DNA of 64,000 nt from Bdellovibrio bacteriovorus (GTDB lineage Bacteria > Bdellovibrionota > Bdellovibrionia > Bdellovibrionales > Bdellovibrionaceae): positions 62,001 to 126,000 of the forward strand of contig NZ_LUKF01000012.1 of NCBI RefSeq assembly GCF_001592755.1. The letters are read 5' to 3'. The notes under the pieces were generated by a model, which was not told the DNA's origin, made no database searches, and worked only from the letters and a program-made list of their open reading frames with translations. A program made the position numbers and the translations under genes. This document shows positions 10,284 to 56,037 of the stretch, piece by piece; the stretch's first letter is position 1, and each line of letters begins with the position of its first letter.

Positions 10284-10433
10284 CGAGATTGGAAGAGGGT
10301 TTAGGGGTTAACACGTAGAGCGGCCTTCGGCGGGGCCTGGACGGCCCGAACCAACGGCAAAGCCGTTGGCGCCGACTGAGCCACGAAGGCGTGCCGCACG
10401 AAGTGCTAACCCCTAAACCCTCTTCCAATCTCG
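10284..10433. repeat. Foldback element, copy 1 (perfect 27-bp arms around a 96-nt structured core)
   Basis: The arm 10284-10310 (begins CGAGATTGGAAG, ends AGGGGTTA) is exactly inverted at 10407-10433. The 96-nt core holds CGGCCTTCGGCGGGGCCTGG, the hairpin CAACGGC-AAA-GCCGTTG (about 10352-10368) and GGCGTGCC. Thirty of 32 bases (10321-10352) match the element at 55.0 kb in reverse complement. The arms of the two copies are unrelated in sequence. It lies between the convergent genes for pseudoazurin and fusA. Confidence 0.8.
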
Positions 10434-10509: not shown

Positions 10510-12618
10510 TTACTTCTGCTCAGCTGCGCGCTTAGCTTGGTATTTCTTAACAAGTTCCTCTTGGATATTACGAGGTACAGCAGCGTACTTCGCGAATTCC
10601 ATAGAGAACTCACCTTTACCTTTAGTAGCAGAACGAAGATCCGTAGAGTAACCAAACATTTCTGTTAGTGGTACTTCGGCTTCGATCACACAGTTACCTT
10701 CGAAAGCTGTAGTAGCTACGATAGTACCGCGGCGTTGGTTGATTTGACCAACAGCTGCACCTTGGTATTCGTCTGGAACTGTCGTCTCAAGCTTCATGAT
10801 AGGCTCAAGAACAGTTGGTTTTGCTTGAGGGTACACTTCACGAAGAGCCGCCATACCAGCGATTTTGAACGCCATGTATGAAGAGTCGACGTCATGGTAT
10901 GCACCATCATCCAAGTGAACTTCAACACCCACGATTGGGAAGCCGATAAGAGGACCTTTAACAGTTTGCTCTTTGAAACCTTCTTCAACAGCTGGGATGA
11001 ATTCTTTAGGGATACGACCACCGACAACGTTGTTAACGAATTTAAACGTTGAACCGTCTTCTTGTGGTGCAAGTGGAAGGATTTTACCCACACACTTCGC
11101 GTATTGACCCGAACCACCCGTTTGTTTTTTGTGAGTGTAATCGTAAGCAGCCTCTTGAGAGATTGTCTCACGGTAAGCAACCTGTGGTTGACCCACGATC
11201 ACTTCACAGTTGAACTCACGTTTCATACGTTCGATGTAGATCTCTAAGTGCAACTCACCCATACCAGAGATGATAGTCTCGTTGGATTCCTCGTCACGGT
11301 GAACGCGGAAAGTAGGGTCTTCCTTACGGAATTTTTGCAACGCTTTAGAGAAGTTATTAGCACCGGCTTTGTCTTTTGGAGCAACAGCCAAGCTGATAAC
11401 TGAATCAGGAACGTGCATTGATTGCATAGAAGCTTCAATTTTGTCGTCACAGAAAGTGTCACCAGACGCACAGTCGATACCGAACAATGCAACGATGTCA
11501 CCAGCGTAAGCTGTGTCGATGTCTTCCATTTTATCAGAGTGCATACGAACCAAACGAGGAATCTTAACAGATTTCTTGTTAGATTGGTTGATGATGAAAT
11601 CACCTTTGCCCATTTTACCTTGGTAAATGCGCATGTAAGTCAACTGACCAAATGGAGTTTCTTGAAGTTTGAACGCCAAAGAAACCAATGGTTTTGTGCT
11701 GTCTGGGAATAGGTCGAACTTTTCTTCGTTCTTAGTAAGATCAAGAGCTTGCTCTTTTTTCTCAGCAGGAGAAGGAAGGTAGTAAGTAACCGCATCCATC
11801 AAACGTTGAACACCTTTGTTCTTAAACGCTGAACCGCAAAGAACTGGAACGAACTTCAAGCTGATAGTTCCTTTACGGATAGCCGCACGGATCTCTTCAG
11901 TTGTTGGTTCTTCTTCCATCAAGAATTTTTCTTCGATAGCAGAGTCAACGTCAGCCAATTTACCGATCATGATCTGACGGTATTTTTTAGCTGTTTCAAC
12001 TAGGTCTGCAGGGATGTCCTGAACAGAAACGGTTTCACCGTTGTCACCTTCGTTGATGTAAGCTTTCATGTCAGTCAAATCAACGTGACCACGATGTTGA
12101 TCTTCCAAACCGATTGGGATTTGGATCATAACTGCGTTCAAACGCAATTTTTCGATCAAAGCATCAGTAACACGGTAAGGGTTCGCACCTTGGCGGTCCA
12201 ATTTGTTAACAAAAGCCAAACGAGGTACGTTGTAACGTTTCATCTGACGGTCAACAGTGATGGATTGAGATTGAACGCCGGCAACACCGCAAAGAAGCAA
12301 GATCGCACCGTCAAGAACGCGAAGAGAACGTTCAACTTCAACTGTGAAGTCCACGTGCCCCGGTGTATCGATCAAGTTAATTGTATAATCCTTCCACTGA
12401 ACCTGAGTCGCAGCAGATTGGATTGTGATACCTTTTTCTCTCTCTAGATCCATGGAGTCCATTGTTGCACCAACGCCGTCTTTACCACGAACTTCGTGGA
12501 TAGCGTGGATTCTTCCTCCATAGAACAAAATACGCTCAGAAGTCGTCGTTTTACCCGAGTCGATGTGAGCCGAGATACCGATGTTTCTGACCATATCAAT
12601 ATTCCACTTTTTGGACAT
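10510..12618 (-). CDS. fusA: Translation elongation factor G, mitochondrial EF-G1/spdEFG1-like type
   Basis: 702 aa, full length. The GTPase domain has AHIDSGKT (17-24), the switch II DTPGH (84-88) and NKLD (138-141); domains II-V follow with YRETISQEA and [11 protein letters not shown]. It catalyses GTP-driven ribosomal translocation. [14 protein letters not shown] and the [12 protein letters not shown] and RQMKRYNVP segments look more like mitochondrial EF-G1 and the spdEFG1 type than like E. coli FusA (AHIDAGKTTTTERI), from my knowledge of the families. It is encoded alone, not with rpsL/rpsG/tuf. A hairpin lies in its leader and a GAAGGG ribosome site precedes the ATG. Confidence 0.93.
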
Positions 12619-53878: not shown

Positions 53879-54955
53879 ATGGCTGATTGGCGCGATCGAA
53901 GTGAAATGAATGGGGACGTGGTTTTCTTCCGGTATGTATCGGAGGGGATGGAAAAGAGTCACGAAGAAGTTTTTATCTGGGATTTGGATAAGACCTATCT
54001 GGACACGACCATTGATTCGCTATCGGGTCTGATGACCACGATTCTTGAGCGCGCCTTGAATAAGAAAAACATTCCTGGCACCAACGTTCTGATGCAATCT
54101 TTGTCGGAGTACCGTAAGCAACAAAAAGGCTACATGTACTTTCCGATTTATTTTATCACAGCATCCCCACCGCAAATGGAAGAGCGCATCTCTGAGAAAT
54201 TCTCTTTGGATAATATCCGCCCGTTTGGTTGTTTTTATAAAGACAACTTGGCGAATCTTCGTCCCGGTCGTTTCTGGCGTTTGACGAAGCAGGTGGGATA
54301 CAAGCTTCAAGCCTTGATGCAGTTAAGAACAAGACTTGCCGAGAACGTCCGTCAAATCTGCTGGGGCGATGACAGCGAAACAGACGCCATCATCTACAAT
54401 CTTTATTCGGATATTTGTTCCAGACGTTTGGGAGCTCACGACATTCGCACGACCTTAGAAGGCTTGAATGTGACTGGTGAGCAAGTAAATACAATCTTAG
54501 ATTTGCAAGCGAATATTCCAGAGCAAGATCCTGTCGAAAAAATCTATATCAATCTTGCGACGGACACCGATCCTGATTACTACTTAAAGTTTGGGCGCCG
54601 CACGTTAGCGACGTACAATACTTTTCAAGTGGCGTTAGATCTTTATCAAGATCACCGCTTAGGCCTTGATGGAATCTACGGTGTTATTCAAGACATGATT
54701 TACAACTATGGCTACACACCCGAAGAGCTGATGAAAAGTTTTGACGAATTTATCCGTCGTGGTGTCTTAGGTGAAAGAGCCTATCAAGAGGTGAAACCTT
54801 TCTTCAACGAAAAGGGATTGCTGCACAACTCTTACGAACCTTCTGTAAGTCCCCTTAAAGAAAAAACTGTTGAGGATGGAAGGGTGTACGAGATGGAAGG
54901 AGTCCACGAGCCTTGGATTCCTGAGCGGATCGATTATCTTCACGACTATCGTTAG
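53879..54955 (+). CDS. HAD-like phosphatase, possibly App1-related, cytosolic
   Basis: 358 aa, no signal peptide. HAD motif 1 FIWDLDKTYLDTT (D35, D37, T39), motif 2 ITASPP (S96), and a GDDSETDAIIY motif (D164, D165) as in App1/DUF2183-like enzymes. The C-terminal 170 residues are helical and unassigned. A phospholipid or nucleotide substrate is possible. The start is the first ATG; a later ATG at 53948 is possible. The last 17 or so codons appear as a degraded inverted copy beyond the foldback element just downstream. Confidence 0.7.
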   Translation: MADWRDRSEMNGDVVFFRYVSEGMEKSHEEVFIWDLDKTYLDTTIDSLSGLMTTILERALNKKNIPGTNVLMQSLSEYRKQQKGYMYFPIYFITASPPQMEERISEKFSLDNIRPFGCFYKDNLANLRPGRFWRLTKQVGYKLQALMQLRTRLAENVRQICWGDDSETDAIIYNLYSDICSRRLGAHDIRTTLEGLNVTGEQVNTILDLQANIPEQDPVEKIYINLATDTDPDYYLKFGRRTLATYNTFQVALDLYQDHRLGLDGIYGVIQDMIYNYGYTPEELMKSFDEFIRRGVLGERAYQEVKPFFNEKGLLHNSYEPSVSPLKEKTVEDGRVYEMEGVHEPWIPERIDYLHDYR

Positions 54956-54969
54956 GCGCTTGCACGCGG

Positions 54970-55122
54970 GATTTTTATAGCTAAGAGTTTTTTATAGCTC
55001 ATAGCTGCGGACGGCACGCCGTCCGGGCTCGGTCAGCGCCGGCTTCGCCGGTTCGGGCCATCCAGGCCCCGCTGAAGGCCGTCCTTCGTATGAACTATAA
55101 AAAACTCTTAGCTATAAAAATC
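54970..55122. repeat. Foldback element, copy 2 (perfect 28-bp arms around a 97-nt structured core)
   Basis: The arm 54970-54997 (begins GATTTTTATAGC, ends TTTTTTATAG) is exactly inverted at 55095-55122, extending as TCATA after one mismatch. The core contains the palindrome CGGACGGCACGCCGTCCG (about 55008-55025), the hairpin CCGGC-TTC-GCCGG, and a 32-base segment (55050-55081) matching copy 1 at 30 positions in reverse complement. The arms have no similarity to those of copy 1. Confidence 0.8.
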
Positions 55123-55182
55123 TTCGTTAAGGTCTAACGTTATCGGAAATAACTGCGACAGGAATCCATTTTAGGCTTCGTG
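55123..55182. repeat. Degraded inverted copy of the HAD gene 3' end
   Basis: In reverse complement this stretch holds CACGAAGCCT, TGGATTCCTG (exact 10-mer) and CGTTAG in the same order as the HAD gene end: CACGAGCCT at 54905, TGGATTCCTG at 54914-54923, CGTTAG with the stop at 54950-54955. The plus-strand positions of the copies are 55173-55182, 55159-55168 and 55134-55139. Confidence 0.7.
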
Positions 55183-55230: not shown

Positions 55231-56037
55231 TTATTCGAAGCGGAGAGGGAAGACTGTGGAGATGGGGTCGCCGTTGAAGGATTTGAATTCGACTCGGCGG
55301 GTGGCTTCGAGGAGGCATTTTTTGAAGCCGGCGTCGTTGATGCTTGAAGAGGCGATTTCGGCTTGGTTTACTTTGCCGGTGCGTTCGATGGTGAAGGTGA
55401 TTGAGGCTTGGCCTGTGACTCCCGGAGTTTTTTGCAGAAGCTGAGTGTAGCATTTGAAGAAAGAGCCGCGGTGAGTTTTCAAGGTGTCTTGAATGAACTC
55501 GGAAGTCAGGCCTTCTTGGATGTTGGGTGTCGGCTGTGTCGGGCTGGTTTCGGCTGGCGCTAGATCAGGCAAAGTTTCTGTCGGAGCTTGTTTCTTGTAA
55601 TTCATTTCGTAGTCGGTGGCGTTCCAGCGGACGCCGTCCTTAGAAATGTAGACGCTGCCTTCGCGGCCGAAGTTTTCTACTTGCAGGTCGCCTCTTTTTA
55701 AAATCAAAACGATGCGATCACTTTCTTCATCAATGGTGATTAAAGAATTTTCGGGAATACGAATGCGGTAAGCGGAATCAAATTCCATGGTCGCGTCACC
55801 GTCTACGCCAGTCTCTACTGAATCTAATGCGAAGAGCGTGGATTTGCGCGTGAGAGTTTCTTTTTGTGTGAGGTTTTTGCGCAAGACAAAGACTTTACCC
55901 AGATTGAGTTCAATGCGGGCTAAAGGGCGAGAGCCTGGCTTCTGTTTTTCAGTTTGTGTTGCTACGAAAAGAGAAAGGCCTACGCTTACAAGACCTAAAA
56001 TAATCAGAGTGGAAATCAACCAGTTGTTCTTCGCCAT
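55231..56037 (-). CDS. AgmX/PglI C-terminal domain protein with FecR-like middle
   Basis: 268 aa. One N-terminal TM (about 7-26), a periplasmic FecR-like beta domain (about 40-140; LFALDSVETGVDGDATMEFDSAYRIRIPENSLITI), a Pro/Thr linker, and a C-terminal TonB-C-like AgmX/PglI domain with two cysteines (FFKCYTQLLQKTPGVTGQASITFTIERTGKV and FKKCLLEATRRVEF). AgmX/PglI-type proteins occur in myxobacterial gliding machinery and similar envelope complexes; the exact role here is unknown. Confidence 0.8.
   Translation of the reverse strand: MAKNNWLISTLIILGLVSVGLSLFVATQTEKQKPGSRPLARIELNLGKVFVLRKNLTQKETLTRKSTLFALDSVETGVDGDATMEFDSAYRIRIPENSLITIDEESDRIVLILKRGDLQVENFGREGSVYISKDGVRWNATDYEMNYKKQAPTETLPDLAPAETSPTQPTPNIQEGLTSEFIQDTLKTHRGSFFKCYTQLLQKTPGVTGQASITFTIERTGKVNQAEIASSSINDAGFKKCLLEATRRVEFKSFNGDPISTVFPLRFE

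Follow-up and report, generated by a model that had tools for sequence, protein, structure and literature searches.

Hairpin-forming DNA repeats near the ends of Bdellovibrio genes, an apparently undescribed family with arms unique to each locus

The window analyzed, a stretch of 64,000 nucleotides, comes from contig 12 of a Bdellovibrio genome of 3.66 Mb (G000). Within it, a gene for a HAD-superfamily protein is followed by a palindrome centered on a three-hairpin core of ∼85 bp, beyond which lies a convergent gene (Table 1). The limits of the palindrome, as set by local self-alignment, are exactly 54905-55182. An earlier note on this DNA had described perfect 28-bp arms, beyond which CACGA(A)GCCT, the 10-mer TGGATTCCTG and CGTTAG from the gene end recur in order on the far side, and both statements were confirmed. 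The 28-bp run lies within arms of 34 nt, in which 33 of 34 positions are paired (97% complementarity). The element folds with a z-score of -10, and the mirror of the HAD gene end (score 51) exceeded all 500 of 500 shuffles (null maximum 37), as well as the scores obtained with the right flank of every other copy of the element. No T-tract directly follows the right arm; the right-boundary logo displays TTCG/TTTG only. An attC-like GTTAGGC/GTCTAAC at the HAD locus proved to consist of the stop codon and its mirrored copy, whose order does not fit attC, and a tRNA-derived core was rejected, as no tRNA was found in the window. The second core of the window, in element 1, is located 3' of the elongation factor G (EF-G) gene and its terminator and is convergent with a cupredoxin gene; as had been noticed, the two elements have the core in common and not the arms.

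Table 1. Features of the hairpin element and its surroundings (window positions)
Feature	Position	Strand	Description and basis
Upstream gene	53879..54955	+	HAD-superfamily protein, APP1-type phosphatidate phosphatase domain; ORF; Pfam PF09949, E 2.4e-8; 3' end mirrored
Left outer flank	54905..54969	+	Last codons of the HAD gene (to 54955) and 14 nt with GCGG boundary motif; original of the mirror; self-alignment
Left arm	54970..55003	+	34 nt (28 perfect); locus-unique
Core, model R1 match	54999..55094	+	105.3 bits, E 2.1e-23; bounded by internal loop GCTGCG / CTTCG; structure on A1/A2
Core basal stem	55009..55084	+	GGACGGC 55009-55015 with GCCGTCC 55078-55084; fold, covariation
Core hairpin 1	55018..55028	+	GCC-GTCCG-GGC; fold, covariation
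Central stem	55033..55075	+	TCAGCG 55033-55038 with CGCTGA 55070-55075; covariation
Core hairpin 2	55039..55051	+	CCGGC-TTC-GCCGG; fold, covariation
Core hairpin 3	55055..55069	+	GGGCC-ATCCA-GGCCC; fold, covariation
Right arm	55089..55122	+	Left arm inverted
Right outer flank	55123..55182	+	Decayed inverted copy of the 3' end of the HAD gene; self-alignment
Convergent downstream gene	55231..56037	-	ORF; no Pfam match
Element 1 (L023), second core of the window	10308..10409	-	3' of the EF-G gene (10510-12618, -) and its terminator

A BLAST search with the element returned ten copies, after which a covariance model of the core (A1/R1) was used. The model detected 26 copies in G000 and further copies in 21 of 23 congeners, at 3-31 per genome. 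Counting G000, the family is present in 22 of the 24 genomes of the genus, including several single-contig assemblies, which leaves a negligible probability that the palindromes are due to chance or to faulty assembly. The remaining two genomes (G002 and G003) contained no core match at all, none of 16 genomes outside the genus was matched, and the named core matches were to Bdellovibrio in every case. In total, 127 copies were collected and oriented. No Rfam match reached the gathering score. A weak, below-cut-off resemblance to TwoAYGGAY was set aside, since it rests on the arms, leaves the hairpins unaligned and occurs in 2 of 21 copies. A viral origin of the core was likewise rejected (no IMG/VR pattern match and no phage match), as was a plasmid origin, for which the sole match was a chance-like 28 nt. 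Extra hairpins are inserted in core hairpin 3 of two copies (L037 1501-1655 and L149 2537-2667), with pairing kept. No account of these repeats was found among the open-licence papers searched, and a survey of bacterial stem-loop repeats does not mention Bdellovibrio (PMC2267715). The element at 54905-55182 is one copy of this family, which appears to be undescribed and whose members lie mostly near gene ends. Dispersed bacterial hairpin repeats are a known class; the unusual part is the ownership of the arms by each locus and the spreading of the palindromes into host DNA.

Arms of ∼30-35 bp, flush with the core, occur in nearly all of the 127 copies. Essentially every collected copy is self-inverted next to the core, so that the refuting case named in the earlier note, copies whose flanks lack self-inversion, was not found. 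The longest perfect run between the arms has a median of 24 bp (125 copies), versus 4 when a left arm is compared with the right arm of another copy. Genome-wide, each of the 26 arms of G000 matches itself and its partner alone, and the arms of non-orthologous copies have nothing in common beyond an outer motif like GCGGGGATTTG. The boundary between GCGGG and GATTTG is partly conserved (61 of 103 copies), as counted with a motif that is itself selective for this boundary. G+T prevail in the 5' arm of all copies and C+A in the 3' arm; the left outer flank, too, is rich in G+T, in keeping with the left arm as the original. That the arms serve as spacers or guides directed at other genes was discounted, for they had no other match in the genome and none in phages. 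Nor do they appear to be internally folded units, as structure within the arms was not in excess.

The arms change in a paired manner. Among 28 orthologous pairs, 99 double changes from one Watson-Crick pair to another were counted versus 36 one-sided changes (8 of the latter from a single pair), so that the arms stay paired. In the 19 pairs examined further, the doubles comprised 57 transversions and 42 transitions, a transversion share to which unalignable replaced blocks may contribute, and they were clustered (32 adjacent, versus 21.6±3.4 expected). Multi-base, clustered and symmetric changes that restore pairing, as of template-switch products, are thus present. Comparison of G000 with its sister species (G018) covered 21 sites, where the mean difference at flanking 4-fold positions is 0.20. 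Arm divergence spans 0-50% and does not track that of the flanking 4-fold sites: the arms are identical at four sites (L014, L016, L031 and L035) and 40-50% different at three others (L012, L019 and L021). General hypermutation of the arms was rejected, their mean divergence being near the 4-fold rate; the oddity is the spread. At one site (L026 in G000, L080 in G018), the left arms are identical and the right arm of G018 differs, leaving 8 mismatches uncorrected. This is a possible captured intermediate of arm replacement; the uncorrected mismatches themselves count against continual repair by template switching. At two sites where both arms were replaced (L021/L082 and L019/L070), the source of the new arm sequence was not found, which also weighs against that process.

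In the core helices, 26 of 28 pairs covary, with 656 double-changed cells compared to 177±13 in shuffled data; the central stem, for example, occurs in other copies as TTGCCG/CGGCAA, TCGTCG/CGACGA and other alleles. Covariation of this strength speaks for a functional hairpin, either a 3' UTR RNA or a protein-bound DNA cruciform, in which pairing would be kept by selection and compensatory mutation with no templated copying. We consider this explanation unlikely. The core almost lacks the G-U pairs that structured RNAs tolerate, and it matches no known Rfam family: of 2489 cells in the core helices, 14 are G-U (0.6%) and 5 A-C, versus 34 G-U (6.5%) and 12 A-C among 520 cells of terminator stems. 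Such scarcity fits selection on RNA via G-U intermediates poorly, and templated copying or selection for DNA pairing better. Moreover, the double changes in the arms are mostly transversions, which would require a mismatched intermediate. Strong selection on DNA structure could nevertheless yield some of the patterns that we ascribe to template switching.

Outside the arms, self-complementarity persists in host DNA but has died away by ∼150 nt. The left flank of each copy was compared with the reverse-complemented right flank of the same copy, using the right flanks of other copies as a control. Among 76 independent copies, of which 3.8 would be expected above the 95% control level, the own flanks exceeded that level in 44 copies at 32-80 nt, 23 at 62-122 nt, 16 at 75-140 nt and 8 at 100-170 nt, reaching chance at 150-230 nt (4 of 74). 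Among 33 independent copies located no more than 40 nt past a stop codon, 15 had an inverted version of the coding end, tested over its final 90 bases, across the core (p<0.05; 1.7 expected), as opposed to 2 of 33 in a direct-repeat control. The assertion that the mirror takes in host sequence outside the arms, coding ends among it, was therefore upheld well above control. Of the ordinary terminators in the same DNA, 39 were usable, and they showed no outward mirror excess. The HAD gene end is conserved in G018, G017 and G006, whereas its mirror is plain in G000 and G018, faint in G006 and not to be detected in G017. With the coding original conserved while the mirror fades between species, the decaying copy is the one on the non-coding side. 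Entry of the mirror into coding sequence and decay of the far copy both argue against a functional hairpin. They also bear on the earlier view of an inverted duplication of host DNA: the mirrored flanks stand, but a single event frozen at insertion is not supported, for the mirrored gene end decays between species and orthologous copies at the same site carry different, still self-complementary arms.

A codirectional gene lies upstream of 96 of 125 copies, while 29 have none, and only 5 of 122 copies are situated between divergent genes. The uniform orientation of the core relative to the gene, noted previously in two elements, is hence a strong bias and not a rule. Likewise, a position just after a stop codon, which the earlier note suggested checking for every copy, is true of many, typically at 3-35 nt, but many others are ∼60-130 nt downstream, behind a T-tract. 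Because these T-tracts are terminator-like, the upstream transcript may not include such copies, a further difficulty for a functional 3' UTR hairpin, which is favored in turn by the orientation bias, the position at gene 3' ends, the paucity of divergent promoters and the retention of orthologous sites across species (six genomes have the EF-G site and four the HAD site). Since gene calls relied on a simple codon score, individual neighbor assignments may be in error. Neighbors identified by eye from translations include EF-G (the only one checked against Pfam), GroEL, ribosomal protein S9, sigma-54 and MurC. Facing pairs of cores, 200-700 bp apart, are common, as in G000 at C19:154736-155276 (L013/L016) and C16:387086-387797 (L031/L025), and are also found in G004, G006, G018 and G019. 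One such pair is located between a gene end and secA, its second core lying 62 nt upstream of secA in antisense, an arrangement that recurs in G018 and G006.

Transcription could be addressed in G005, which we take to be strain HD100 and in which the model had 14 matches (12 strong and two marginal). Its c-di-GMP riboswitch falls inside the published merRNA interval, and the coordinates are therefore comparable with those of HD100. One copy falls, in sense orientation, within APsRNA6, an attack-phase transcript of 655 nt from HD100 (PMC3627812). This single overlap among 14 copies and eight sRNAs could be due to chance; it is evidence for transcription of that copy, not for function, and to that extent accords with a functional hairpin. 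APsRNA6 (L196 788-1442; HD100 1,338,787-1,339,441) contains, at L196 814-1092, an ORF of ∼90 codons whose putative product is a small membrane protein, and may thus be an mRNA; the stop codon of the ORF precedes the hairpin element. Near the mapped 3' end, at about L196 1403-1500, a candidate degenerate core in opposite orientation was recognized by eye and not by the model.

The cores behave differently from the arms. The nearest neighbor of a core was in the same genome for 48 of 100 copies (10.6±3.5 expected), and the mean core distance was no smaller for the same site across genomes (0.276) than for different sites within a genome (0.256). Cores are homogenized within genomes, and they move or are converted between sites; the arms do not. 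Two sites are occupied in G000 and empty in relatives: L033 in G018 and G008, and L032 in G018, with more distant relatives also lacking L032. The extra DNA sits in both cases in terminator T-tracts, with TATTTT at both ends at L032 and T-tracts at L033, which are ambiguous as target-site duplications. Both copies are read as apparently recent insertions in G000, the alternative being deletion elsewhere. At a third site (L037), G018 has no core but retains a stretch resembling the right arm. The arms of L032 and L033 are near-perfect, and their sequence is missing from the empty alleles. At these one or two apparently young insertions the arms were accordingly not copied from the host flank, and the earlier idea of host-DNA inversion is upheld only in part. 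Some arms were either brought in by the element or rewritten immediately, and such perfection in young arms is a weak point of template switching.

These insertions, together with the scattered copies, their variable number and the partly conserved arm boundary, recommend a transposable unit of core plus arms, the arms being renewed by an enzyme at each move and differing orthologous arms representing repeat insertions at T-tract hot spots. That possibility is nonetheless quite improbable. No two non-orthologous copies have the same arms, the empty alleles could in part be deletions, and orthologous copies with different arms (L012/L074) share locus-specific inner bases TCATAGCTGCGG and flanks, indicating that the element stayed in place. 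The one match in G000 to the Y1 transposase family PF01797 (C14:89288, 28.7 bits) does not adjoin any copy, which also counts against ownership of the repeats by such an enzyme.

Our preferred reading, held at little better than an even chance, is a REP/MITE-like family of non-coding DNA hairpins in which fold-back template switching builds the stems and renews them. Near-perfect unique arms, a fading host mirror, paired arm change, core homogenization and placement mostly at gene 3' ends are observed, and we infer the extrusion, the polymerase switch and its direction. A core that becomes single-stranded in replication or repair would extrude as a hairpin; a stalled 3' end would then switch to the opposite arm as template, copy the arm and sometimes the host DNA beyond it, and switch back. 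Short, frequent events would keep the inner ∼30 bp perfect, and rarer, long ones would mirror ∼100-170 bp including coding ends, after which the non-coding side would decay, while cores would spread between sites or be converted. No switch event has been seen directly. The near-constant arm length and the partly conserved boundary, moreover, suggest that the element has a defined end, a feature not predicted by free template switching. More tentative still, with the balance somewhat against it, is the idea that the core is a dedicated palindrome nucleator, by which fold-back copying of its neighbors continuously mirrors host DNA at dozens of sites, structure being inherited and sequence not.

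The copying might instead be RNA-templated, a transcript 3' end in the core priming reverse transcription of the arm and gene end, followed by recombination of the cDNA. The order of gene end, arm, core, inverted arm and inverted gene end is that of self-primed copying of a sense transcript, and one copy is indeed transcribed in sense. This route is very improbable, however, as elements also lie behind terminators and the search for reverse transcriptase domains had no match in G000 and none in most of the congeners covered; the negative outcome for G000 argues for DNA- rather than RNA-templated copying.

Several known systems resemble the family in part. The terminal inverted repeats of MITEs are common to their copies, which is not the case for the inverted arms described here. 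The REP/BIME elements associated with RAYT transposases are also short palindromic intergenic repeats; their many copies lie close to gene 3' ends, are seldom found at divergent promoters and sometimes form facing pairs. Their extragenic position near 3' ends is matched in Bdellovibrio, but their high copy number (often >100 of one palindrome) is not (26 copies in G000, 3-31 in congeners), and the three-hairpin core and long locus-unique arms are further differences. The attC sites of integrons are structure-conserved, sequence-variable hairpins just after stop codons. In the Bdellovibrio element, the conserved part is the tip and not the base, and no ordered attC core-site pair was apparent on reading. 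Intrinsic terminators and long 3'-UTR hairpins are similarly downstream of genes; the element lacks a T-tract of its own, while terminators lack the outward mirror and have more G-U pairs. MITEs and other stem-loop repeats (ERIC, RU-1/2 and YPAL) are, like the present family, non-coding, dispersed, hairpin-forming and lineage-limited, with empty sites (PMC2267715).

Fold-back template switching has already been proposed for RNA hairpins, in which multi-base paired changes, restored perfect stems and stem extension are likewise seen (PMC8794818). Those cases are sporadic and occur in RNA genes, in contrast to Bdellovibrio, where the process would be recurrent, at a dedicated repeat family, and would extend into coding DNA. 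Template switching has so far been proposed mostly from the histories of RNA genes, and the family supplies natural replicates, dozens of sites in all, in which its building and upkeep of long hairpins can be followed. If the preferred reading is true, perfect covarying stems can persist by a mutational process acting on DNA, and not only as functional RNA. This would bear on the judgment of structured-RNA candidates, for which such stems usually count as proof of function.
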